Shown piece by piece: positions 2,318-20,058 of a DNA stretch of 21,417 nucleotides (positions are counted from its first letter, which is position 1; each line of letters opens with the position of its first letter). Source of the DNA: a virus; IMG/VR virus record IMGVR_UViG_3300042401_000380, positions 1 to 21,417 of that record; one strand, 5' to 3'. A program made the position numbers and the translations under genes. The notes below the pieces were generated by a model that was not told the DNA's origin, ran no database searches, and worked only from the letters and a program-made list of their open reading frames with translations.

Positions 2318-3357
2318 AGTTTTGCTTTCTTGGGTTTGTCCTCAACTAGCTTTACAATTTCCTCTGCAACATCTGGCAGGATTTGAGTGAGATCGTATCC
2401 CGCTGACTCGCAGTACTTCTGCAATTTTGCAGCAGAGATGCTACCTCCGAATAGCTTAATGCTGTCGGAAAGTGACATTTCGGTGCAATTTCCGATATGT
2501 TCGATAACCTCCGCAGGGTATGTCTCACGTCCCTTTTGCCGTTGCAGTTTCCATCCATAGACTTTCTCACCTGCCTGTAGCTTTTCCTTTAGCAGATCCT
2601 TTGCCCAATCGACGAGGTAATTGTTGAAAATACTGCTCTGTTTTACAAACGTGGAGAGTCGCTCAATATCACCTGCGAGATGCTCCTGCATTTGCGCGAG
2701 GTTGGTCTGTAGGTCGTTTTGAACCACCTCTAGGGTGTTGGCAACTGGGTTAGTAATTTGTTCGCAAGTGGTGGAATTTTTACACCACTTGCAATAATCG
2801 CAAGCGGTTGGGATTTTGTCTGGGTCGTTATATGCTGCTAGGATTCCCTCAACAACCTCCTTGGCTTCTTCGATTGTCCAAGAATGCGTGACTACACGCT
2901 CCTGATCGCAGAACAGCAAGTGCGTAGTCCATTCGCGAATAGCGTATTCGCCAGTCTCGAAATCGTAGCTTGCTGCCATGTTGCCGTAGGCATAGGCACA
3001 CTGTTGCTCGGCGTACGAACGTAGGATTCCTGATTTTAGGTCTAGGCTTGTATGTATAGCAGGGATACGGCAATCCTCAGTTCCAACGTGATCGATCCCC
3101 GGCGTTTTAACTTTTAAGCTATCTTCGTCTGTTACCACCTCATGGTCACCAGCAATTGTCTTGGTCATCTCCACTGCCCACATGACCGAATCAGCATCTT
3201 TTGAATTTAGGTTCAAGAGAGGTTTATTGTTCCCCATGAACATTTCACGGAATGCCTCGTCCATGTGAGTCCCGCGAGACGCAGCAGGGGAGTTACCCCC
3301 TGCTGACTCGAAACAGGCACACTCAGCCAGCTTAGGAAGTAGTGAATGACGGATCAT
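2314..3357 (-). CDS. PD-(D/E)XK exonuclease, Cas4/RecB-like, with Cys cluster
   Basis: With the start at 3357 the protein has 347 residues. That ATG overlaps the annealing-protein TGA (ATGA) and is preceded by GGGAGG at good spacing; a further upstream ATG at 3372 is less likely. Visible nuclease features are SRGTHMDEAF with His31, Asp89 in GIDHVG, a DLKSG core with Asp106 and Lys108, and Gln118 in AEQQCAYAYGN. After the fold comes a cluster CDYCKWCKNSTTC (Cys186, 189, 192, 198), plus Cys13 and Cys15 near the N-terminus, as in nucleases of this superfamily that bind an Fe-S cluster. Next to an ERF protein, the expected role is 5'-end resection of double-stranded DNA to load the annealing protein. 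The C-terminal 130 residues are helical and unassigned. Confidence 0.8.
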   Translation of the reverse strand: MIRHSLLPKLAECACFESAGGNSPAASRGTHMDEAFREMFMGNNKPLLNLNSKDADSVMWAVEMTKTIAGDHEVVTDEDSLKVKTPGIDHVGTEDCRIPAIHTSLDLKSGILRSYAEQQCAYAYGNMAASYDFETGEYAIREWTTHLLFCDQERVVTHSWTIEEAKEVVEGILAAYNDPDKIPTACDYCKWCKNSTTCEQITNPVANTLEVVQNDLQTNLAQMQEHLAGDIERLSTFVKQSSIFNNYLVDWAKDLLKEKLQAGEKVYGWKLQRQKGRETYPAEVIEHIGNCTEMSLSDSIKLFGGSISAAKLQKYCESAGYDLTQILPDVAEEIVKLVEDKPKKAKL

Positions 3358-4010
3358 TTCGATGCCTCCCATTTGGCTACTGCTGCCAAAAACTTCTCAG
3401 GAGAGACGATAAGGTTGTCACGATATTTACCAGCGGGAAGATCATTCCACAACTGACCAGCTTTGATTTCACCTTTTGAGAGTAAGTATCCAGTAGCCGA
3501 TTCAGCTTTGGTTCCAATCACTGCCTCAACTTTTGTGAACCAGTTTGGATCCTCTTTTGGTGTTACGGGTGCTAGGACTTTTGTGACTGTTGTCCTAGCA
3601 GGGGCAACATTGCTGCGTCCCATTGCCATTTCACCATCGTCATCGTCAGGGCAAGCCATGACCATTGCCTGTAAAGCATACCTACGAGCGTAGGATATAA
3701 GAGATCCAATGCCTTGAGGATCTTCTTTTGATGGTTTCATATATGTTGTGCTTCTAATCCATTGCCCACTTGAATGCATTATTTGCGTTTGTACAAAATA
3801 TCCACGCTCATCCGAACCCGGCATCTGAACTATGCTAATTCCATGTTTTGTGAGTGATGGTTTAACTGTTTCCCACACCATAGAAAGGCTAGAGAATTTT
3901 GATTTAAAATATGGATTATCTTGATCTTTTTGAACCGATCCAATTTCTGCTTGTGCTTTTGCTAAAGCGGAAGCTAATTCATTTATTTGATCTGATTGTA
4001 TGTTATTCAT
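3354..4010 (-). CDS. erf: ERF-family single-strand DNA annealing protein
   Basis: The 218-residue product has the ERF signature: an N-terminal helix ending AKAQAEIGSVQKD, NPYFKSKFSSLSMVWETVKP (residues 32-51), KHGISIVQ, and the diagnostic PQGIGSLISYARRYALQAMV (98-117) followed by an acidic DDDD at 122-125. ERF proteins anneal complementary single strands during phage recombination, genome circularisation and repair. The last 85 residues are a less conserved tail ending FLAAVAKWEASK. The ATG follows the endonuclease TAA directly (TAAATG) with no Shine-Dalgarno, so translation may depend on coupling. The adjacent nuclease gene supports a two-component recombination system. Confidence 0.9.
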   Translation of the reverse strand: MNNIQSDQINELASALAKAQAEIGSVQKDQDNPYFKSKFSSLSMVWETVKPSLTKHGISIVQMPGSDERGYFVQTQIMHSSGQWIRSTTYMKPSKEDPQGIGSLISYARRYALQAMVMACPDDDDGEMAMGRSNVAPARTTVTKVLAPVTPKEDPNWFTKVEAVIGTKAESATGYLLSKGEIKAGQLWNDLPAGKYRDNLIVSPEKFLAAVAKWEASK

Positions 4011-4679
4011 TTATTTTAAGTATTGAAATACTAGGTTATTTGTGTGTTTATATTTATTTTTTAGAACTTTACGAATATTTTCTCGAAAAACTCCATATTT
4101 TTTTGCTGCTGCACTAATTGAAGAAAAAGTTTCTCCATCATTTTTGCAGATAATTTTTACTTGTTTTTTACCGGGAGGTTTTAATTTGACTCCAAGGCTC
4201 TTAAGTCTTATCCAAACAGTCGTTGTGCTAACATTGTATTTTTTAGCTATTTGTGTTGTGGTTAATGTTTTATATTCATTAATAAGAACATTGTAATCGC
4301 AGAAATGCTTGAATGTTAAGTTTTCTTTACCTTTCGGCTTTGGGGTTTCCTTGAATTTTTTTATTTGTGATTTGCTAATATTCTCCCCCCACCATCTCTT
4401 ATCTACATGCACCCCGTCTCCTCCATTAGAAATATTGGCTCTGCATTGATTGATTTCCTTCAATCTTTTGATCTCCTTTATTTCTAATTTGAATGCCATT
4501 TTTTCAGATAAATTCTTAAATGCTATTACAGCATTGCAGCCATGCTTCTTGTAGAACGCATCCCATAATTTACCACGACGTTTAAATGAAATGTATCTTT
4601 TTCCAGACCCTTTCCCGACATAGTAAATCTCACCAGTTTTTTCAGAAGCATGATAATAGATGTAGTATTTTTTTTCCAT
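4011..4679 (-). CDS. GIY-YIG homing endonuclease with C-terminal NUMOD-like DNA-binding repeats
   Basis: The 222-residue protein opens with a GIY-YIG-type core: KYYIYYHASEKTGEIYYVGK (residues 4-23), then GSGKRY, a helix with candidate catalytic Glu66 or Glu69, and NISNGGDGVH at 82-91, which is typical of Seg-like phage endonucleases. Residues about 143-163 form a helix-turn-helix (IAKKYNVSTTTVWIRLKSLG) and about 180-210 resemble a NUMOD1/IENR1 repeat (GETFSSISAAAKKYGVFREN). Such free-standing enzymes cut a target locus in related phages and spread by repair. The gene is clearly more AT-rich than its neighbours, a sign of separate origin. It lies between the intact ERF gene and a diverged copy of the ERF 5' end. 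A TTGACA element at 4709-4714 might be its own promoter. Confidence 0.85.
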   Translation of the reverse strand: MEKKYYIYYHASEKTGEIYYVGKGSGKRYISFKRRGKLWDAFYKKHGCNAVIAFKNLSEKMAFKLEIKEIKRLKEINQCRANISNGGDGVHVDKRWWGENISKSQIKKFKETPKPKGKENLTFKHFCDYNVLINEYKTLTTTQIAKKYNVSTTTVWIRLKSLGVKLKPPGKKQVKIICKNDGETFSSISAAAKKYGVFRENIRKVLKNKYKHTNNLVFQYLK

Positions 4680-4708
4680 CTAAAAATAGAATCCATTCTT
4701 TCAGTCAT

Positions 4709-4714
4709 TGTCAA
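4709..4714 (-). promoter_or_regulatory. Possible -35 element before the homing endonuclease
   Basis: A TTGACA lies on the minus strand about 30 bases before the endonuclease ATG. Possible -10 hexamers are TCTATT (18-base spacer) or TATTTT (20-base spacer), both weak. Initiation would fall close to the start codon. It is a consensus match only. Confidence 0.2.
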
Positions 4715-4729
4715 ATAAAAAAACAGATT

Positions 4730-4792
4730 CTCTGCCTGTGCTTTTGATAAAGCGATTGCTAGGTCTGCTATGTTTTCTGATTGTGTGTTCAT
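4730..4792 (-). pseudogene. Diverged duplicate of the ERF gene 5' end (remnant)
   Basis: Starting at the ATG at 4792, 21 codons encode MNTQSENIAD followed by LAIALSKAQAE, which aligns with the first 22 codons of the intact ERF gene (MNNIQSDQIN, ELASALAKAQAE). By hand, about 46 of 63 aligned bases and 14 of 21 residues agree, with one codon missing. Similarity stops at AQAE; the frame continues through unrelated sequence and into the endonuclease gene out of frame, ending at 4526. This looks like the severed 5' end of an ERF gene from a related phage, brought in with or left by the endonuclease insertion. It may still be translated and couple ribosomes to the endonuclease. Confidence 0.7.
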
Positions 4793-7040: not shown

Positions 7041-7241
7041 TCATTCTTCCCTGTCTAGTTCTGTGTCGAATTCAGCTAACTCATACATTTCATCCATGTC
7101 ACCATTGGCATAGTCTTCTGTTAGCTGGATAATTTTTTCTTCTGATACCTTTTTAGGGTTGTAAAACACATATTCATCTTGGACAGGAATCATCTCCCAT
7201 CCCTTTGGCCCTTCTTCTTTGTCAGTTACAAGTATATTCAT
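7041..7241 (-). CDS. Hypothetical acidic protein (66 aa)
   Basis: An unrecognised protein beginning MNILVTDKEEGPKGWEMIPV with a strongly acidic second half (YANGDMDEMYELAEFDTELD). It has no cysteine and no membrane segment. Its ATG overlaps the stop of the giant virion protein (ATGA), so it is probably translated by coupling to the end of that very long gene. Confidence 0.6.
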   Translation of the reverse strand: MNILVTDKEEGPKGWEMIPVQDEYVFYNPKKVSEEKIIQLTEDYANGDMDEMYELAEFDTELDREE

Positions 7242-10200
7242 TTTTTAAGTATTAATGGTATTTTTGACTTTTTCATCGTCCCAACAATGGTTTCTTTGCT
7301 TCCTGTTCTTACTGTTTGCTTGGGATGACTGCTTGCATAGTCAGGGAACAACGTAACTGGATCTCTTGGTGTTTCAAGAATAAAGTTATTTGCATCTTCT
7401 GGGCCAAGCATCATCCAGTCATAAGATGGATGTATTCTGAACTTAGGGTTTTTTATGAACTGGTCACGAAGATATCTTTCAGTGTCACTCATCTTAGCTT
7501 CTTGCTTTGGATCATTTCCAGTGTAGATAGCGAAAGCATCCATGTCTTTCGACAATTGAACTGCTGCTACGATATCTAAGTTTTTACCTTTATTGAAATC
7601 CATTGACTCTAATAGACGTTGAGCAACGGAAGGAATGAATGGCAGTCCATCAATCCTATCCATTGCGCTTCCACGTTGGTTAAATGTGAATTTAGACGCT
7701 TCTTCTGAGAATGTTTTGTCCTTATATTTATTAACAATTTTCTTATACCAATCTTGATCTTTGTACTTACTAATATGATCATCAAATGACTTATCGAAAC
7801 CCTCAATATTACCTTTAGTTGCTTGTGACTTCATTGATCCCAATGCACCCAAGAAATCAACGCTAGGCTTATATTTCTCAATATTTTTAGCTTCAAATCT
7901 TTCAATTAAATTGAATTCTGATTGGGTTATTTCATTGTCTTTTAATAAACTTTTAGCTTTCTTATATCGTTTTAAATGTTTGGCTGGATTTTTTGCTCCC
8001 AACTCAAGTATAACGTGCAATGCATCTAGTCGATCTTGCGGTATAGATGCAGACGTTGAATCGATTTCAAACATCACATCTTGAACGAATTTGCGATTGC
8101 TTTTATGCGCTCTTTCTTTCATCAATTGAATAAGTGCCATTCCAGACGTTGTATTCTTAATAATGTTCTTTGCCCTTGTAACAAAAGCAGCAGTCATATT
8201 TGCCCAAACAGGTTTAAATCCTCTTCCATCTGGTAATTTAGCTATTGCCTGATTCGATTTGAGCCAAGGATGCAATGGCCCACCCATGTTAGACCCCCTT
8301 GTGTTGTGCCTATCAGCCTCTAGCATTGCAACTTGTTCTCCAGATATTGAAGATATATCAGAAACTCTAGGAAGAACTGTTGTTTTAGGATCAACTTCGT
8401 ATTCAATAACACGATTATCTTCAGTTGGTTTTGTTGCTATTTTAAAGTATCCTCTATCTGGAAATTTAGATGGTAATTTTCCACCAATAGAATGAGTGAA
8501 ATCAGGTTCTATATCTCTTTCAGGTTCTTTTTTAGCGGTTTTAGGCTTTTTAGCACCCTCCGCTGGCATGAACTGCAAGCCAGTTATGTCAGAAGATTGT
8601 ATGCTTTTTTCTGAGGTAATAGCACCTATCATCTCCGAACTTTGCGGTTTTTCCGAGATGGTAGGTTTCATCTTGGTTAAAGTTTCAGATGGTATAAATG
8701 GAGTTCCTGTTTCGCTATCTTTTCCGATAGGCCCAGAAACTTTCACAACATTATCAATTGGAATGCGTCCAGATGCCCTTAAATAATCATCTGCGCCAAT
8801 CATAAAAAGATCAAGTCCATTTGGGTCTATTGCAAGAACAACGCCTTGTTTACCATGTGGAATATATGTTTCTGCCGTTACTACGCTTGTAGAAAGATTG
8901 ATTTCTTCTTCTGGAGAAATTACACCTCGACCATCTGTATCAATGTATCCTTGGTTTTGGATTCTTTCCCAATCTTCTTTTGTTACTCCACGAAACAAAA
9001 CGCCTCCAGTAAGTTCAGCTTCAAATTTGTCACCAAGAGCATCTGAATCAGCAATCTTTTTTCCTTTTTTCCATCGTCTACCTGTGTCCCTTGGGCCAAA
9101 CAATCCTTGCTCTATTTGCGTTGGAACACCTTTATTTAGTGATTCAAGATCGCTTAAATATCTGTCTCTTTCATCTAAACTTAACTTTTTTGCTCCGGGA
9201 TTCCTAACTTGAAATTCTAAATCGCGGACTTCTTTTCTTATTGTATCATACTTTTCATAGAGTCTTGTTGCTTCAGGCGAATCAAACGATTCTTCGTTTG
9301 CCTTTGTATTAAAAGCCTCCAAAGCGAACTTCTTTCTTGCATTTGCTTCAGCAAGCAATTTTTGAATATTTTCTATGTTTTGTGTTTCAACTTCATCACC
9401 TATCTTTGGAGAAATTTCAGTTTTTTCTCCAATAGTAGGTTCCAACTCCATATCAGGCAGCATAGCCTTGCCCCGCACAGGAGGCTCAATTTCACCCAGC
9501 GAGAGTGCCTTCGCTCCAACCACCTTGGTTGGTGCGGAAATGCCTTCTAGGGGGCGAATACGCGCAGAGATTGGCTCGTATTTGGTGGGTTGCTCTGCTG
9601 GCATGAACTGCAACTGACCACCTCTCACTTTGCCTGCCATTTCTGGAGTGATGTTTACTTTCCAGATTGGGGTGGAAGTATCTTTAGTAAATGCCTCTGC
9701 ATATGATTCTGCTAATTTTTTTGACATTAACTGTCCATCTTCAGCCCTAGATGCAAATGTCTCTTTTTCAATATCAGCTAAAAACTTTCCAGTTAATCGA
9801 TCGCGAAGAACAAATACACCCTCTCGGAATCCTTGAACTGTTTCAAAGTCATATTTTTTGCCAGCTTCAATCTCAGATTTCTCAACCTTGCCACCCATCT
9901 TTGCAATATACTTGCCAACCTCTTTAGGCATGATTTGGTCGTAGAATCCCTTCATGCCTTCACCACCGACTGTTAGGTCATCTCCAGTGGCAGTTCCAGA
10001 GTTTTCAGCAAGGATTTTCGATGCCACTTCTTTTCCTATCACCTCGCTCAATTGCTTGCCATTGGCATCAGCAGTATCGGAATCATAGACAGATCCATCA
10101 TCGTTGATTTTACCTGCTAATACTGTGTTTCCATTTTTAATGGCAGCAAACGCTTTTTGGTAACCCTTGGGAGTGTTCCATGTGATCTCATCAACCGCTT

Positions 10201-13200
10201 GACGCATTGCTTGCTCGTAGCGTTTTACCTGCTCGATGCCAGTAGTCCAGCCAATCCACGATTTGTCTGCATCCACGGCATCACGCAATGCGCGTTTGAA
10301 GAGTTGGATAGACCAGTCTTTGCGGAATGGTGCGTCTGGGACTAAATCTTTTCCATGTAATGTAATAGATTTAAGATATTCTAAAGCATCACTTTTTGTT
10401 TTAAACTTTACAGACGGGTCATATACTCCTTTGACTCTAAACACACCATTGTCATTAAAAATCCTATTTTCATCGATTTTTACATCCTGAATATACCCCT
10501 TCTCCCTACCTGCCTGATGCCTGTCAGACTGGAATTCCTCAACAAACAACCCATCGTTGCCCTGCGCGTCAGTACGCTCATTGATACGCATATGCGCTAT
10601 ATAGTTTGAGATATCTGGAAAATGTGATGAGAAGTAATCTTTTGATTCATTTGTGTATTGCTTCCACCTTCTTGAAACTTCGTTTTGCTGTTCAAAAGTA
10701 AGATTACCTGTTTCGTAACCAAGTTCTTGCTCAATCTCTGTTAATGTTTTTTCTTGTCGTGGCATTGTCATCACCACCTCGCGGTAGTTTGTGCCACCGG
10801 GGAGTTGGTATGTAGAGTGCTTAGGTTCAAGCGCATTCTTGCTTTGATACATCGCGTCTTGCAAACGAATTGGAAGCTCATCAAATTCAAGAGGATCATC
10901 AAATTCATCGTAAAATGCTTTTTCACCATACTCATCTTCAATTTTTATTCTGTATTCATCAGCAATTTTTTGAATGGAATTGTTTTGTCCAAGAGTAACC
11001 TCTTCAAACTTAACAGCACCTTCATTGCGGAGGTAATCCATAACCTTGTCTTTTGGAACCTTGCCTTGATTCTCCGCTGCGAGACGATCAATCTCACCAA
11101 GCACTCCAGACCATTTCAGTTCCTCGGCCTTTGCGTTCTGTGGGTTGTTGACGATTGCCTTGAGTTGATCTGGTGACGCAAATTTTCCCTGCACTTTTTC
11201 GTCGATGGTCTTTTGTAGTCCAGAGTACATTCCACGCTCGGAGGTAGGGTAGCGTTCCGTTTCCGCTGGCATGAACTGCGTTGCCGATGCTGATACCTCT
11301 GGTTCGCTTTCCATTGGTTCAAGTATAGCTTGCGTTGGATCAAACATGGATCTAACGCGCAACTTTCCATTCTCTACATCAATATACTCTGCTGGATGCA
11401 ATAGGTCTTGCTGATGCAATTGTAACTCCAATGGTTCAATGTTGCCTTGCGCGGCTAGTCTCGCTAGTTCCGTGTCAATTTCCATTGCTTGAGCGAATTG
11501 CTCTGGACTCTGCAATTCGGCAAGGGGATTTTCTGCTGGAAGATAGTTTTTAACTGCCAACTCGTAACTAAATGGCATCTTTGCCAATGCAGTTTCATCG
11601 TAGGAATTAATTCTATCCATGCGTCTAGAACGAATAACTACGTCCCTGCTATCTTGTCCCTTTCGTTTAGGCAAAGTGGTGCGTTCTGGATTCGCATCGC
11701 GGGTTTCCTTTCGATAGACATTGAATAAATCGTTGATCCTATTCTTCATTTCCATTGCTATCTCAGGGTCTGGATTAAGCCCAATATGCCCCTGCAAGCC
11801 TTGTTTGTGGTTATAAAGGTATTGACGCACAGAGTCCCAAAATTTGGTCATGTCTCCACCCCACAACCTCAAGTTGCGAGGACGCTTTGCTGCCCAAGCA
11901 TTAGCCTTGTCGTGCATCCGTGACATCGACATCGTTGTCATTAAAAAGTTGCCTTGTTTATCAAATTGAAAACCAAATGGGATTTCGGTTCTCATTTGTG
12001 GTTGCAATGCACGATACTTTTTGTCTCGTGTTGCAGCTTGGTATTCAATTTCTACAATACTTCCATCTTTTCGACCCAAGATTTCATTAAAGAATGCAAT
12101 CTTACGTTTCAGTGATGGAGCAACAAGGTCGTTTGGCAGTGCATTAATTGCAGCAACCTGTGTTGGTGAAAGGGTTCCCCGATAGTTTCCGTTACCTGTA
12201 TCTTCCAACCTCACTCCAGAAGCATCTTCAGGTGCTTCATCGATAGCCTTTCGGATTGCCTCTCCACGTTTCTTTGCGCGGCGTTTTGATTCCCTTGGGG
12301 AAATAATGCGAGGGGATCCATCTGCATTCCTAGCAATGCGTGTATCAACGCTAAGAGAAGTCCCGTCAGGCATTGCCTGAAGCGGAATATCAGGCCCAAG
12401 CGAAATCACGTTACCTAAGTCATCGACCAACTGACCATTTGCAAATCGATAGTCACTAATGAACGAATCCACTTTCACGTTGGGTGGAATAACAATCTCT
12501 TGAGTCTGACCATCTGGGGTTGTCATTTTGACAACTTGTTGTTGCTCGAAAAACTCGGAATCCTTGTATCGTTGTTGCAATGCACGATTGGTTGAAAACA
12601 CTGTCAAAGGGATTTCAGCCTCATCCTTAATCGGATCAGAATTGTAAACCAAAGATTCATTGAGATCACGAAGACCCCTTTGATATCGGCGCATCATTGC
12701 GAGTGCCTCTGGGTTTAGTTCTCCACCAATAACAGATGAAAATTGCCCTTGGTCATCAACAATGACTCCGTAATTACGAAGTGCTTCTTTGACTCGTTTT
12801 AGCGCACCATTCTTTGTTCGACTTTCAATCCAGTCCACAACAGAACGTCCCACGGAATCTAGGTTGCCCCGTAGATTGCCTTGGATTCCACCAGAAAGAC
12901 CTGCCAACTCTGACAGATACTCTTCCTTCATGTAGTTCCTCAACTGGTCTTGATTGGCAAAATTAGACAAGAATGACGCTCCACCAGATGCATCCATTGC
13001 CGCAGCATATTGCAATGCGAATTTATCCAATTCAGAGTCTGGAATTACACCTTTTTTAACAACCTCAAATGTTCCATCTGGATTAATTACTTTTTGATCG
13101 AAAAGTTCTTTTCGGATCGGCGCAATCATGTCACGAACTTCTTGGAAGTTTGATAATGCGTGTTGCATTTCGTGATTGATAACCCGCCCTAAGTTAAGTC

Positions 13201-15367
13201 CATCTCGTCCCATTTGTGTCACCAAATCACCATTAATGACAACTGTTGCACCTGTTTGATTTTGCATCTTGAGGTGGTTTGGTTTTCCAGTCTGTTCTGA
13301 AATTGCAAACCCTCTTGCGGTAGAGGATCCAGCTACATCTTGTAGATATTGCTTGATAGTTTGATCGGCTAAACCAAGCATCTCTTTTTCTGATGGAGAC
13401 AAACGAGGATTGCCAACAAGTTGTTGAAGCACACTTTCCGCATCAGTTAATGTCTTCCCATACAGATTGCGGTAGAAGTCCTCCATCTGATCTGGACGCA
13501 GAACCTTTACTTGAATGTTATTCAACCCTGCTGCCGCTCCAGTGGTCTTTGCCAAGTCCATTGCATCCGTGAAGCTCAATTGAACTTGACGCTTAATTTC
13601 TGCTTCTGTTTGCGAAGTCGATTTGTCTAATGCTTTTCGTTGTTCTGCAAAATTATCAATTTGATCTTGGATTCGACGCTCGTCATCCTTGTTTATCTGA
13701 GCAACTTTTTTTGCCTCTAGATTTTTGATCTTTAGATCAAGAGCAGATTTGATGTTGTTGACATTCGACAACTCATCGATGCTTGACATCAATGTTGGAT
13801 CAGCGGTTTTAATGAATCTCTGAATGTCCGCATCTTCATCTTTACGCAATTGAGACGGATCTGGTGTAACAATGGCATCTATCTTTTCAGCAAGCCCAGT
13901 TGTTGGATCAATCAAAGCACCACCACGCTCCATTAGTCTTGCTCCACCATACGCTCCAATACCTGCTCCAACTCCAGCACTATAGCCAAGATCGCGCGCA
14001 GTCTCAATATCAGGCAATCCAAGTGCCACATTCAATACAGCACCATTAACGGCAGGTTGAATAATAGCGTTAGATTGACGCACTGCCCAGTCAGCAACCC
14101 TTGCGCGTCCTTTTCCACCCAATGCCTGTGGCCCAAAAAGTTTCTTGGTAAGCTCACCAGATGTTGATGCACGTCCCGCTAACTCAAACATTCCTCGTCT
14201 TCCCAACCCTGCTTGCCCCGCAACATCTGCAATGGTTGTTGCAATGCCCCTTGTCATCTTGGCAGGTAGTTTTGCAGGCCCAACAATTGTGTTTGTTGCA
14301 GTTTTTACAAATGTATCTGGATCTCCAACCGCATATTCACCAATCTTGCGTGAAGCACCTTGGATCTTTTCAATGCCAGATTCTAGTCCTCCAGCGGTTT
14401 TTGCCACTCCCCTTGCAAGTGGTGCAACAACGCCCCTTAAAGCTAATTCTCCAGCTTTTCGTGTAACCTTGCCAGTGGCCTTTGCAAATGTGTTGGTAAT
14501 GCGGTTGGTTCCCGGTAATGAAATCGGTGACAATATTTCACCAAGCATCGAAACATTTTCATTAATCTCGTCCTTAGTTAATCCTTGTTCCTTTACCAAC
14601 TCTTCATAAGCCTTTTTAGCAAGTTCTGCTTCTTCTGGAGTTGCTCCTTGAGCTAAAGCGGCAACAGAAGCAAGTTTTTGAAGCAATGGGTTTTCAGCTA
14701 ACAAACGAGCAGCATTGTCAGGATCATCAGCATACACTTTTTGAGCAAACTGACGCATACCCTCACGAAGCATATATTTTTCAAATCGCTCATCATTAGA
14801 CTTTCCAAGCAATTTATCAGTAATGCTGCTGCCAAACATTGAGAATCGAACCGCAGCATCTGCTGTTTCTTGAATGTCTCCAGCAACTCCACTAACTCCA
14901 GATCTCCATATGTTTTTAGCTTCTTTTAATGTCTTTTCAGCCTCTTCAGGAGACTGGGACATTGAATCAATTGGCTTTAAAACTCCTTTATACAAAAATT
15001 CACCAGCACCTGTTCCCAATTGCTTTGCAATATCAATTGCGGTAGGTACAAAAGTGGTGACAGCCTCGGATGCTTTTTGTGTAAACTCTTTTTTATCTTC
15101 AGCGTCAAACAGAATTCTCTCTTGCTCACGGGTCAATTCTTGACCTGATTGCTTCATTTGTTGAAGCGTACCTGCGTCTTTAATTTTAGTAGGACTATTA
15201 TCTAGTTCATCTTCAGGGGGACTCCATTGATCTGGAGTATTTTCAACTAATTCAGCTTTAGGAGGACTCCATTGATCTGGAATATTTTTGGCCGATTCAT
15301 CCTCAGGAGGTTTCGATTGCTGTAGAACATTACTGTCTAATTCATCTTCAGGTGGTTGCCATGCCAT
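7238..15367 (-). CDS. Giant multidomain virion/ejection (polyvalent-type) protein, 2709 aa
   Basis: This is by far the largest gene and the last of the virion block, where T7-like phages place the large internal protein that enters the host. From the N-terminus: tandem W-x-P-P-E-D-E-L repeats (residues 1-57); helical and Gly/Ala-rich stretches, including a hydrophobic segment near 459-480; a coiled coil near 530-590; an HEMQH zinc metallopeptidase motif at 732-736; a conserved block around 1140-1330 (MSRMHDKANAWAAKRP); QFMPAE at 1364-1369; a block at about 1590-1820 (VEEFQSDRHQAGREKGY, GGEGMKGFYDQIMP); QFMPAE at 1920-1925; an ADP-ribosyltransferase-like segment at about 2115-2235 (FRG, STS); QFMPAE at 2265-2270; and a basic helical C-terminal block (HPWLKSNQ, MKERAHKSNRKF). 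Multi-enzyme 'polyvalent' proteins of phages are thought to be delivered with the DNA to counter host functions. The multidomain architecture is clear; individual activities are inferred. Confidence 0.85.
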   Translation of the reverse strand: MAWQPPEDELDSNVLQQSKPPEDESAKNIPDQWSPPKAELVENTPDQWSPPEDELDNSPTKIKDAGTLQQMKQSGQELTREQERILFDAEDKKEFTQKASEAVTTFVPTAIDIAKQLGTGAGEFLYKGVLKPIDSMSQSPEEAEKTLKEAKNIWRSGVSGVAGDIQETADAAVRFSMFGSSITDKLLGKSNDERFEKYMLREGMRQFAQKVYADDPDNAARLLAENPLLQKLASVAALAQGATPEEAELAKKAYEELVKEQGLTKDEINENVSMLGEILSPISLPGTNRITNTFAKATGKVTRKAGELALRGVVAPLARGVAKTAGGLESGIEKIQGASRKIGEYAVGDPDTFVKTATNTIVGPAKLPAKMTRGIATTIADVAGQAGLGRRGMFELAGRASTSGELTKKLFGPQALGGKGRARVADWAVRQSNAIIQPAVNGAVLNVALGLPDIETARDLGYSAGVGAGIGAYGGARLMERGGALIDPTTGLAEKIDAIVTPDPSQLRKDEDADIQRFIKTADPTLMSSIDELSNVNNIKSALDLKIKNLEAKKVAQINKDDERRIQDQIDNFAEQRKALDKSTSQTEAEIKRQVQLSFTDAMDLAKTTGAAAGLNNIQVKVLRPDQMEDFYRNLYGKTLTDAESVLQQLVGNPRLSPSEKEMLGLADQTIKQYLQDVAGSSTARGFAISEQTGKPNHLKMQNQTGATVVINGDLVTQMGRDGLNLGRVINHEMQHALSNFQEVRDMIAPIRKELFDQKVINPDGTFEVVKKGVIPDSELDKFALQYAAAMDASGGASFLSNFANQDQLRNYMKEEYLSELAGLSGGIQGNLRGNLDSVGRSVVDWIESRTKNGALKRVKEALRNYGVIVDDQGQFSSVIGGELNPEALAMMRRYQRGLRDLNESLVYNSDPIKDEAEIPLTVFSTNRALQQRYKDSEFFEQQQVVKMTTPDGQTQEIVIPPNVKVDSFISDYRFANGQLVDDLGNVISLGPDIPLQAMPDGTSLSVDTRIARNADGSPRIISPRESKRRAKKRGEAIRKAIDEAPEDASGVRLEDTGNGNYRGTLSPTQVAAINALPNDLVAPSLKRKIAFFNEILGRKDGSIVEIEYQAATRDKKYRALQPQMRTEIPFGFQFDKQGNFLMTTMSMSRMHDKANAWAAKRPRNLRLWGGDMTKFWDSVRQYLYNHKQGLQGHIGLNPDPEIAMEMKNRINDLFNVYRKETRDANPERTTLPKRKGQDSRDVVIRSRRMDRINSYDETALAKMPFSYELAVKNYLPAENPLAELQSPEQFAQAMEIDTELARLAAQGNIEPLELQLHQQDLLHPAEYIDVENGKLRVRSMFDPTQAILEPMESEPEVSASATQFMPAETERYPTSERGMYSGLQKTIDEKVQGKFASPDQLKAIVNNPQNAKAEELKWSGVLGEIDRLAAENQGKVPKDKVMDYLRNEGAVKFEEVTLGQNNSIQKIADEYRIKIEDEYGEKAFYDEFDDPLEFDELPIRLQDAMYQSKNALEPKHSTYQLPGGTNYREVVMTMPRQEKTLTEIEQELGYETGNLTFEQQNEVSRRWKQYTNESKDYFSSHFPDISNYIAHMRINERTDAQGNDGLFVEEFQSDRHQAGREKGYIQDVKIDENRIFNDNGVFRVKGVYDPSVKFKTKSDALEYLKSITLHGKDLVPDAPFRKDWSIQLFKRALRDAVDADKSWIGWTTGIEQVKRYEQAMRQAVDEITWNTPKGYQKAFAAIKNGNTVLAGKINDDGSVYDSDTADANGKQLSEVIGKEVASKILAENSGTATGDDLTVGGEGMKGFYDQIMPKEVGKYIAKMGGKVEKSEIEAGKKYDFETVQGFREGVFVLRDRLTGKFLADIEKETFASRAEDGQLMSKKLAESYAEAFTKDTSTPIWKVNITPEMAGKVRGGQLQFMPAEQPTKYEPISARIRPLEGISAPTKVVGAKALSLGEIEPPVRGKAMLPDMELEPTIGEKTEISPKIGDEVETQNIENIQKLLAEANARKKFALEAFNTKANEESFDSPEATRLYEKYDTIRKEVRDLEFQVRNPGAKKLSLDERDRYLSDLESLNKGVPTQIEQGLFGPRDTGRRWKKGKKIADSDALGDKFEAELTGGVLFRGVTKEDWERIQNQGYIDTDGRGVISPEEEINLSTSVVTAETYIPHGKQGVVLAIDPNGLDLFMIGADDYLRASGRIPIDNVVKVSGPIGKDSETGTPFIPSETLTKMKPTISEKPQSSEMIGAITSEKSIQSSDITGLQFMPAEGAKKPKTAKKEPERDIEPDFTHSIGGKLPSKFPDRGYFKIATKPTEDNRVIEYEVDPKTTVLPRVSDISSISGEQVAMLEADRHNTRGSNMGGPLHPWLKSNQAIAKLPDGRGFKPVWANMTAAFVTRAKNIIKNTTSGMALIQLMKERAHKSNRKFVQDVMFEIDSTSASIPQDRLDALHVILELGAKNPAKHLKRYKKAKSLLKDNEITQSEFNLIERFEAKNIEKYKPSVDFLGALGSMKSQATKGNIEGFDKSFDDHISKYKDQDWYKKIVNKYKDKTFSEEASKFTFNQRGSAMDRIDGLPFIPSVAQRLLESMDFNKGKNLDIVAAVQLSKDMDAFAIYTGNDPKQEAKMSDTERYLRDQFIKNPKFRIHPSYDWMMLGPEDANNFILETPRDPVTLFPDYASSHPKQTVRTGSKETIVGTMKKSKIPLILKK
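15194..15367 (-). repeat. Tandem W-x-P-P-E-D-E-L peptide repeats at the N-terminus of the giant protein
   Basis: Within the first 57 residues the units WQPPEDELD, SKPPEDESA, WSPPKAELV and WSPPEDELD recur every 14-16 residues, with D-Q between the later ones. The DNA repeats as well (a ctccattgatctgg block occurs twice near 15222-15277). Such short acidic, proline-rich repeats are likely unstructured and could bind a virion partner. Confidence 0.75.
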
Positions 15368-18403: not shown

Positions 18404-19243
18404 TTATTCTTTGTTGTTCCAATCTACTGGTTTAAATCCTAAATCTGGTATCACGATGTCATCGTAAGGTGCTAGGTGTGAAATATTAGTTATCTTTGCC
18501 TTGAGTTTAGGGCAATCAACGTGTGGCCCTTGGTGGCGATCAACGCAGTTCAAACAGACAGGATAGAAGTCAGCATTGAGTGACTTGTCTGGATTATTCA
18601 TCCATCCATGCTTTCCCTTTACATATCGTGTTGGGTCTGGCTGGACATTGTTAGTCTCAAGGTATTCAAATACATCTTCATCAGTCCAATCTTTTAGCAA
18701 GTAAAGCGAAACAGGGTTTCCATCAATATGACGAATATCTTGTGACAACGAAAGTTGTCCTTTCATTAGGTCAGTATCCCCACCTTTAGTTCCAATCCAA
18801 ACTGCATTCCACGGAAAATTAAATGTTCCAGTTGGACGCATCAAAAAGTCATCTACACCACACATGAATGGTTCATTCGCTTTAGGGCGTTCAGTTCCCA
18901 AAGACAGAACAATGGAGTTTTGACCCCACTGGAAATAGTGAAGCAAATCAAAGCGAACATCTCCAGTATGGACATCAGGCCCATCTGCCAAAGTATGTTT
19001 AAATGCTGGATACTCGTACATGGTGAGTTGCCAGTCCTTAATTAACTTATCAGAATAAGCATACCTTTCGCGGAATTTTGGTTGCCTAAATTGAACCACA
19101 GGGATATCAATTCCACACTTAAATTTTAGAAAGTGCAGAAGTACAGTTGAGTCCTTTCCTCCAGACCAAAAGATGACCGAATTTGGCCATTGTTTGTTCC
19201 AACGAACTGCTTTATCGATTGTTTTATGTATTAGGTTTTTCAT
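18404..19243 (-). CDS. PAPS reductase-like / adenine nucleotide alpha hydrolase (279 aa)
   Basis: The start at 19243 shares a base with the upstream TAA (TAATG); a longer frame would add a Cys/Trp-rich stretch read from the overlap. The protein has the PP-loop SGGKDST at residues 27-33, then a PAPS-reductase-like core: a G-T-K-G-G-D motif at 151-156, PVSLYLLKDWTDEDVFEYL at 177-195, and cysteines at 230, 233 and 244 in YPVCLNCVDRHQGPHVDC. Family members use ATP-pyrophosphatase chemistry in sulfate activation and reduction, tRNA thiolation or DNA phosphorothioation. The canonical C-terminal catalytic cysteine of PAPS reductase is not obvious, so sulfonucleotide reduction is not assured. Its place inside the ejection-protein block suggests an accessory gene. 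Confidence 0.85.
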   Translation of the reverse strand: MKNLIHKTIDKAVRWNKQWPNSVIFWSGGKDSTVLLHFLKFKCGIDIPVVQFRQPKFRERYAYSDKLIKDWQLTMYEYPAFKHTLADGPDVHTGDVRFDLLHYFQWGQNSIVLSLGTERPKANEPFMCGVDDFLMRPTGTFNFPWNAVWIGTKGGDTDLMKGQLSLSQDIRHIDGNPVSLYLLKDWTDEDVFEYLETNNVQPDPTRYVKGKHGWMNNPDKSLNADFYPVCLNCVDRHQGPHVDCPKLKAKITNISHLAPYDDIVIPDLGFKPVDWNNKE

Positions 19244-20058
19244 TAAACGACAATGGCAGCGGCAATTCCTGCACCAGCAACTGCACCACCACCAGTAATC
19301 CATGACCCCATTGCGGCATTTTTGCTTTGCGCGTTTTGTGCCATAATTTGGTTTGCCATATTGTTATAATTTTGAGTGTCTGCTACGTTTGCGGAATGAG
19401 CGGATTGGATATTACCCATCGAGCGGTTAATTGCATCCTGTGCAGTTTGCCCTAGACCCTGCGCTCCAGATAGGACACCACGTTGCCACTCTTGAAGACT
19501 TTGTTGGTTCTGTCCTTTTGCTGCTAGTTGACCTGCAACCAATGAGCCGGGGTCAATGCCACCCTGCATTTGGGTTGCGTCTAGATACTTTTGACGTAGT
19601 GCCAAATCTTCCAAAGCAATCTGCCTTCCTTGTGCCGTGGATTGATCGAACATTGCAGACCTGCCAATGGTGGATCCCATGTCGAGTCCAGTCCCCATCA
19701 TTTGCGCCAGACCTTTTGTCTTTGCCCACTGCCCTAGTTTTTGCTGCCAACTCTCTGGAGAGGTTAGATTCTGTACAGTCTCGCTCATGCCTGACCGCAT
19801 CTTGGCTAGGGTTGGATCTACGTTTTCTTCAAATTGTCTAGCGCGATTTGCGTTTTCAATTCCTAGCTCAAATGCTTGTTGAGATACCTCGCTGGGGTTA
19901 AAGTCTTGGTAAATTGGCTTTAGTTGAGCAGCCATTTCAAGCAACCTACCTTGAGAAGCAAGACCACCATACATCCCTTTGTTTGCCTCGGATGCCATCA
20001 TCATGTTAAGTTCAGGACGAGGTTGTTGAATTTGAGGAGTATATGTTTGGCCGCCCAT
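19243..20058 (-). CDS. Putative internal virion protein (T7 gp14-like style, 271 aa)
   Basis: The protein begins MGGQTYTPQIQQPRPELNMM. It is mostly helical and rich in Gln, Ala, Met and Gly (EANKGMYGGLASQGRLLEMA, then SQQAFELGIENANRARQFEE). Residues 220-250 are Asn/Gln-rich, and it ends in a hydrophobic Gly/Ala segment (GSWITGGGAVAGAGIAAAIV). Size, composition and position before the larger internal proteins fit a gp14-like membrane-active ejection protein, by analogy rather than sequence identity. It lacks a Shine-Dalgarno. Confidence 0.6.
   Translation of the reverse strand: MGGQTYTPQIQQPRPELNMMMASEANKGMYGGLASQGRLLEMAAQLKPIYQDFNPSEVSQQAFELGIENANRARQFEENVDPTLAKMRSGMSETVQNLTSPESWQQKLGQWAKTKGLAQMMGTGLDMGSTIGRSAMFDQSTAQGRQIALEDLALRQKYLDATQMQGGIDPGSLVAGQLAAKGQNQQSLQEWQRGVLSGAQGLGQTAQDAINRSMGNIQSAHSANVADTQNYNNMANQIMAQNAQSKNAAMGSWITGGGAVAGAGIAAAIVV

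Follow-up and report, generated by a model that had tools for sequence, protein, structure and literature searches.

Two similar beginnings of an erf gene lie on either side of an endonuclease gene in a phage genome. Which of the two is native to the phage, and how did the other come to stand beside it? The locus is part of IMG/VR virus record IMGVR_UViG_3300042401_000380, whose full length of 21,417 bases is referred to as the window.

Layout of the erf locus

On the minus strand, in 5' to 3' order, an erf-like start is followed by a 222-aa ORF and then by a complete erf gene at 4010-3354 (Table 1). The ORF which begins with the upstream start opens with MNTQSENIADLAIALSKAQAE; the complete gene opens with MNNIQSDQINELASALAKAQAE. 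With one codon gap allowed, the two starts are identical at 48 of 63 bases (76%) and at 14 of 21 residues. Their alignment scores 49, compared to 28 for the best of 500 shuffles and 26 for the next best unrelated site in the window; the match is therefore far beyond chance. The complete gene encodes an ERF single-stranded DNA annealing protein (PF04404, E 5e-26, residues 13-137; PHROG Erf-like), and the profile match spans both parts of what appears to be a chimeric protein. An earlier note on this DNA had described two diverged erf starts flanking an endonuclease. That observation and its coordinates are correct; the feature itself is larger, with foreign DNA continuing to about 3705-3642 in the N-terminal part of erf.

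Table 1. Features assigned to the erf locus of the window
Feature	Position	Strand	Basis
Truncated resident erf start (21-codon stub)	4730..4792	-	DNA identity to endonuclease-free relatives; resident upstream flank
Left end (leader) of the inserted element, AATCTGTTTTTTTATTTGACAATGACTGAAAGAATGGATTC...	4680..4729	-	Missing in endonuclease-free relatives; beginning common to L038 and L065
Putative GIY-YIG homing-endonuclease gene, 222 aa; N-terminal nuclease and predicted HTH/NUMOD-like C-terminal DNA-binding part	4011..4679	-	Motif, model, homologues
Foreign class E erf N-terminal part, about codons 1-120	3650..4010	-	Identity profile and tree; right boundary 3705 to 3642
Resident erf 3' part, joined to the foreign N-terminal part	3354..3645	-	93-98% identity to best relative
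88-aa ORF from stub through leader into the endonuclease gene (+2 frame)	4526..4792	-	Equivalents in L038 and L065

Origin of the two erf starts

Fourteen IMG/VR loci (L001-L013 and L021) have window-like flanks, lack the endonuclease and carry one intact erf each. The stub is identical at 63 of 63 bases to the intact erf start in L005, L009 and L013, and 70-98% identical to that of the other eleven; the flank upstream of the stub is also of the resident type. The downstream start is only 70-78% identical to the erf starts of these relatives. Identity to the best relative along the downstream gene is 60-77% from 4010 to about 3650. From 3650 downward it is mostly 93-98% per 60-nt bin, through the 3' end of erf and into the next gene. 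Over the carried N-terminal part, mean DNA identity to the relatives is 57-73%; the same relatives are 80-92% identical among themselves there. At the sites which separate the foreign copy (L038 type, see below) from all fourteen relatives, there are zero foreign-type bases from 3642 onward. A fit with one breakpoint locates the change at 3705/3696; beyond that point, five foreign-type sites remain.

Because the stub equals the intact erf of relatives and the downstream N-terminal part is the outlier, the stub is the resident start, and the downstream start, with about 100-123 codons, comes from an immigrant erf allele. On this profile the foreign insert extends from about 4729 to a point between 3705 and 3642, and comprises the leader, the endonuclease gene and those erf codons. 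The two starts derive from two phage lineages; the earlier note was right that their divergence excludes a recent local duplication.

The note had gone on to propose that the upstream 63 nt arrived with the endonuclease from a related phage, and that the downstream gene was the resident, which had kept or regained its own start. The two starts do flank the endonuclease and have diverged, and the endonuclease did travel with the 5' end of another phage's erf. The foreign copy is the downstream one, however. A foreign origin for the upstream stub is refuted by the endonuclease-free relatives with the same flanks, where its sequence is found unchanged, and the downstream N-terminal part is the outlier; this direction of transfer is almost certainly wrong. 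The comparison of erf loci with and without the endonuclease, which the note had itself suggested, did find phages that match 4730-4792, as the beginning of an intact resident erf. The segment is thus not an independent gene unrelated to erf, an outcome which would have spoken against the note.

Two further invaded lineages

The same structure of stub, endonuclease and complete erf is present in two other IMG/VR phages, L038 and L065. Elsewhere in the 8.7 kb of L038 compared, no DNA similarity to the window was detected. Its relatives L041-L044 have an intact native erf and no endonuclease. Compared to L041/L043, the L038 erf is 50-72% identical over the first 360 nt and about 83-100% identical from about codon 120 to the gene end. 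In L065, the upstream 1,490 bp, including the stub, are 96.4% identical to endonuclease-free L071. The N-terminal part of the L065 erf is approximately 88-98% identical to L064 and L067, which belong to class E (see below) and both lack the endonuclease, and 53-75% identical to L071; the right junction is blurred by further or later mosaicism. The native stub ends at codon 21 in the window, at codon 23-24 in L038 (MNTQSDNIGDLAAALAKAQAEVGT) and at codon 9 in L065. The left junction is therefore not one fixed site.

Among 129 loci scanned with their upstream sequence (some contigs being counted more than once), only the endonuclease loci showed a second erf start; other weak hits look like short chance matches. 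The same arrangement without the endonuclease, which would also have counted against the earlier note, was not found in this set. Pattern searches of IMG/VR returned full copies only in L038 and L065, together with one distant N-terminal match (L147, 42% over 90 residues), and peptide and DNA pattern scans of GTDB genomes returned zero further copies. Three copies are known, all on metagenomic contigs, from scans that are non-exhaustive (the first query missed L065).

The endonuclease

In an alignment with annotated phage homing endonucleases, Y8, Y20-V-G-K-G, R28, E66 and N82 are invariant, and the window protein has the GIY-YIG catalytic motif. The window protein has no direct Pfam GIY-YIG hit; three members of the related-protein alignment match PF22945 (LEM-3_GIY-YIG), and NUMOD3 matches are also found among related proteins. 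HTH and NUMOD-like hits are located in the C-terminal part of the window enzyme. A structure model made from the three copies is of low confidence (pLDDT 52); all nine of its top PDB matches are nevertheless GIY-YIG proteins, with probability 0.85-1.00. These matches come from the three-sequence model, an earlier model made from two sequences having been uninformative. On motif, predicted fold and profile matches, the protein is assigned to the GIY-YIG superfamily.

The window endonuclease is 89% identical at the amino acid level to the L038 copy and 73% identical to the L065 copy. Between the window and L038 genes, dN is 0.06 and dS is 0.77; comparisons with L065 give dN of 0.15-0.18 and dS above 1.5, which is near saturation. 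The low dN relative to dS (dN/dS about 0.08) indicates that the gene is under purifying selection. It should be noted that every copy is an assembled contig, and a metagenome assembly that joined two phage strains could be suspected. Such a chimera is highly improbable: the same structure, with different junctions, recurs in separate IMG/VR records, and the endonucleases are diverged (74-86% DNA identity among copies) yet share a leader.

The gene is present at three loci and absent from the corresponding loci of relatives, and the window has no intron match; this presence/absence polymorphism is that of a free-standing homing endonuclease, and homing activity is presumed for the GIY-YIG protein. 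The gene does interrupt an erf reading frame, which is what would be seen if an intron or intein were removed to join the upstream start to the downstream erf. That explanation has a negligible probability, given that the window has zero Rfam intron matches at a permissive threshold and that the downstream erf is a full gene whose own ATG comes right after the endonuclease stop, so that a duplicated start would be needless. A group I intron in particular was rejected, as there is no Rfam match to a ribozyme core and only 0-1 nt between the endonuclease stop and the erf ATG.

Related GIY-YIG endonucleases are found directly 5' of terL in Proteus phage ZX7 (L142, 2917-3678) and Rhizobium phage RHph_Y1_10 (L143, 2995-3612), where the endonuclease genes overlap the terL start by 20-23 bp. 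No terL remnant is present beside or upstream of the endonuclease in either phage; these are therefore plain insertions upstream of terL.

Leader, junctions and expression

The three copies share a leader, AATCC(A)TTTTTCAATTGACA or a close variant. Its beginning, up to TTGACA, is common to the window, L038 (AATCCATTTTTCCAATTGACA) and L065 (AATCCATTTTTCAATTGACA), and resembles erf codons for NPFF/NPYF; this resemblance hints that the first insertion may have occurred near codon 35. The erf ATG follows the endonuclease stop after 0-1 nt in each of the three copies (TAA-ATG or TAA-A-ATG). Such spacing points to a translation of erf that is now coupled to the endonuclease, and to transcription from the native upstream promoter. 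When the region was scanned for promoters, sites were no more numerous than in shuffles.

The ORF that spans the stub has equivalents of 92 aa in L038 (3876-4154) and 83 aa in L065 (1465-1716). Stub and leader could together form a functional ORF of 83-92 aa that is maintained by selection, for example because it damps translation of the endonuclease, and this would be compatible with a homing element. The ORF is open in all three copies and overlaps the endonuclease start in the same relative frame (+2), an agreement expected by chance in 1 of 9 cases. The protein sequence after the stub is strongly diverged in L065, though, and the 88-aa ORF of the window has no family match; a selected function is considered unlikely.

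Erf allele classes and the likely target

A tree of erf N-terminal parts separates two sets, class E and class R, with a branch support of 98/100. Of the endonuclease-free genes, 13 fall in class E, together with all three carried copies (typed by QDNPYF / MPGSDERGYFVQTQ), and 24 fall in class R, including the relatives that serve as proxies for the three recipients. This is naturally read as the work of an enzyme that cuts class R but spares class E, with the carried class E piece repairing erf and, through a presumed resistance, protecting it. The target probably lies within erf, because insertion in the 5' part of this gene recurs in three lineages; to this extent the earlier expectation of cleavage near the 5' end of erf is supported. 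Outside the start codon region, one of the best conserved blocks of class R is GCAGAGAACGGAACAGTCCACAAGGAT (around erf nt 58-84). The carried copies depart from it at about a third of the bases, a divergence no higher than the average for the N-terminal part, and the block is therefore a candidate target site only.

Erf N-terminal parts are also exchanged without endonucleases in the same phage group (L018-L029 and L040). L040 has a class E N-terminus between L041/L043-like flanks. Phage recombination alone can therefore produce chimeras, and ordinary mosaicism offers an alternative account, in which Erf-type or host recombination swapped in the front of a neighbour's erf and the endonuclease is a passenger upstream of the allele. 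Erf is itself a recombination gene, and its conserved blocks, such as CPDDDDGE..AMG, provide natural crossover points. What mosaicism does not readily explain is the recurrence of the same endonuclease with a native stub in three lineages, the conservation of that endonuclease by selection (dN/dS of approximately 0.08), and the fact that the endonuclease-free chimeras keep no stub. Mosaicism as the whole explanation is judged improbable.

The L018-L029 erf loci carry a third N-terminal type, MKNIASALVKAQKAFGPALKTSTNPHFRSRYADL. The L024 sequence becomes similar to the window again at 3658, close to the window breakpoint. Crossovers seem to recur at the end of the erf core.

Proposed mechanism

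The locus is best read as a homing element of phages that replaces a gene end: it would cut class R erf and repair it with a linked class E N-terminus that the enzyme presumably cannot cut. This reading is held to be probable because of the three-part structure, the mapped foreign segment, the three invaded lineages with their endonuclease-free relatives, the co-occurrence with class E and the purifying selection. The donor phage would contain an erf 5' stub, then the endonuclease, then a complete erf whose diverged N-terminal part is of class E. In a recipient with an intact class R erf, the GIY-YIG endonuclease would cut the gene, most likely in its 5' part. Repair from the donor would then rely on homology at the stub side on the left and, on the right, at the conserved end of the erf core (CPDDDDGE..AMG, about codons 120-132), so that the endonuclease and the class E N-terminal part are copied in together. 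The steps after the cut would follow the co-conversion pathway known from phage homing (Edgell et al. 2010, PMC2988022). The product would consist of the native promoter and the first 9-24 native codons (the stub), the endonuclease, and a complete chimeric erf with a class E front and a resident back. The host gene would thus be rebuilt without an intron or intein. The product would have the same three-part form as the donor and be able to home again; its site would stay uncut, as the class E sequence presumably resists the enzyme.

Relation to known homing systems

The closest parallels are found in fungi. WHO elements of Torulaspora and Lachancea yeasts home into FBA1 and swap in a resistant 3' end, and the native end is displaced as a fragment (Coughlan et al. 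2020, PMC7282813); WHO cleavage has been shown experimentally. In both systems the endonuclease gene has a rebuilt, full-length chimera of the host gene on one side and a displaced piece of the native gene end on the other, the ends of the host gene have different histories, a swap of a resistant gene end linked to the endonuclease is proposed, and no splicing is involved. The window, L038 and L065 each have the replaced gene end and the displaced native fragment. WHO elements differ in affecting the 3' end of FBA1, in their intein-derived (HO/VDE-like) zinc-finger enzyme, and in occurring in clusters on yeast chromosomes. The phage element affects the 5' end of erf, has a GIY-YIG enzyme whose gene is in line with erf, and is known here from sequence alone. 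It therefore appears to work like a WHO element but is not one.

Fungal mitochondrial mORFs carry foreign C-termini of atp6, atp9, cox2 and nad3 (Beaudet et al. 2013, PMC3630166); examples are atp6 of Allomyces macrogynus and atp6, atp9, cox2 and nad3 of Glomus. These also combine a mobile endonuclease ORF with a foreign terminal piece of the host gene, displace the native end and express the hybrid, and the atp9 case involves a GIY-YIG enzyme. The mORFs replace C-termini in mitochondria, whereas the phage element replaces an N-terminus (the 5' and not the 3' end of the host gene) in phages.

Among phage systems, the free-standing Seg endonucleases of T4 perform intronless homing with co-conversion, as in SegF/gene 56 and SegA/uvsX; SegA adjoins and targets the recombinase gene uvsX (Edgell et al. 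2010, PMC2988022). As proposed for the erf element, a phage GIY-YIG endonuclease lies beside an essential or recombination gene, targets the neighbouring gene of a rival and co-converts the flanking allele. In the excerpts of that review, seg genes are listed between whole genes and a displaced native start is not described; the erf element is inserted inside a coding sequence and leaves a native stub. The same review includes endonuclease genes within phage coding sequences: mobE in nrdA of Aeh1 and mobA in T4 gene 60. Those insertions yield two-piece proteins that assemble, whereas the erf element would restore a full-length protein by means of the carried gene piece.

No earlier phage example was found in the open-access literature, as searched by word matching with incomplete coverage. 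In the published cases found, homing elements that rebuild a gene with a foreign end are confined to yeast chromosomes and fungal mitochondria, and to 3' ends. By analogy, the phage erf element is the mirror form, with the same logic applied at the 5' end in three lineages. Its presence there points to a solution of general use to selfish endonucleases that sit within coding sequences. The element would explain some of the mosaicism in the evolution of phage recombinase genes. With one enzyme and two allele classes, it is also a compact system for direct tests of target specificity and self-resistance.

Other features of the window

Two 250-aa ORFs on the same strand overlap almost fully in different frames at 375-1131; the ORF at 379-1131 encodes a C-5 cytosine methylase (Pfam) and 375-1127 is the alternative frame. 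The largest ORF in the window is a single one of 2,709 aa at 7238-15367. A protein of 299 aa with a PAPS-reductase domain is encoded at 18404-19303.
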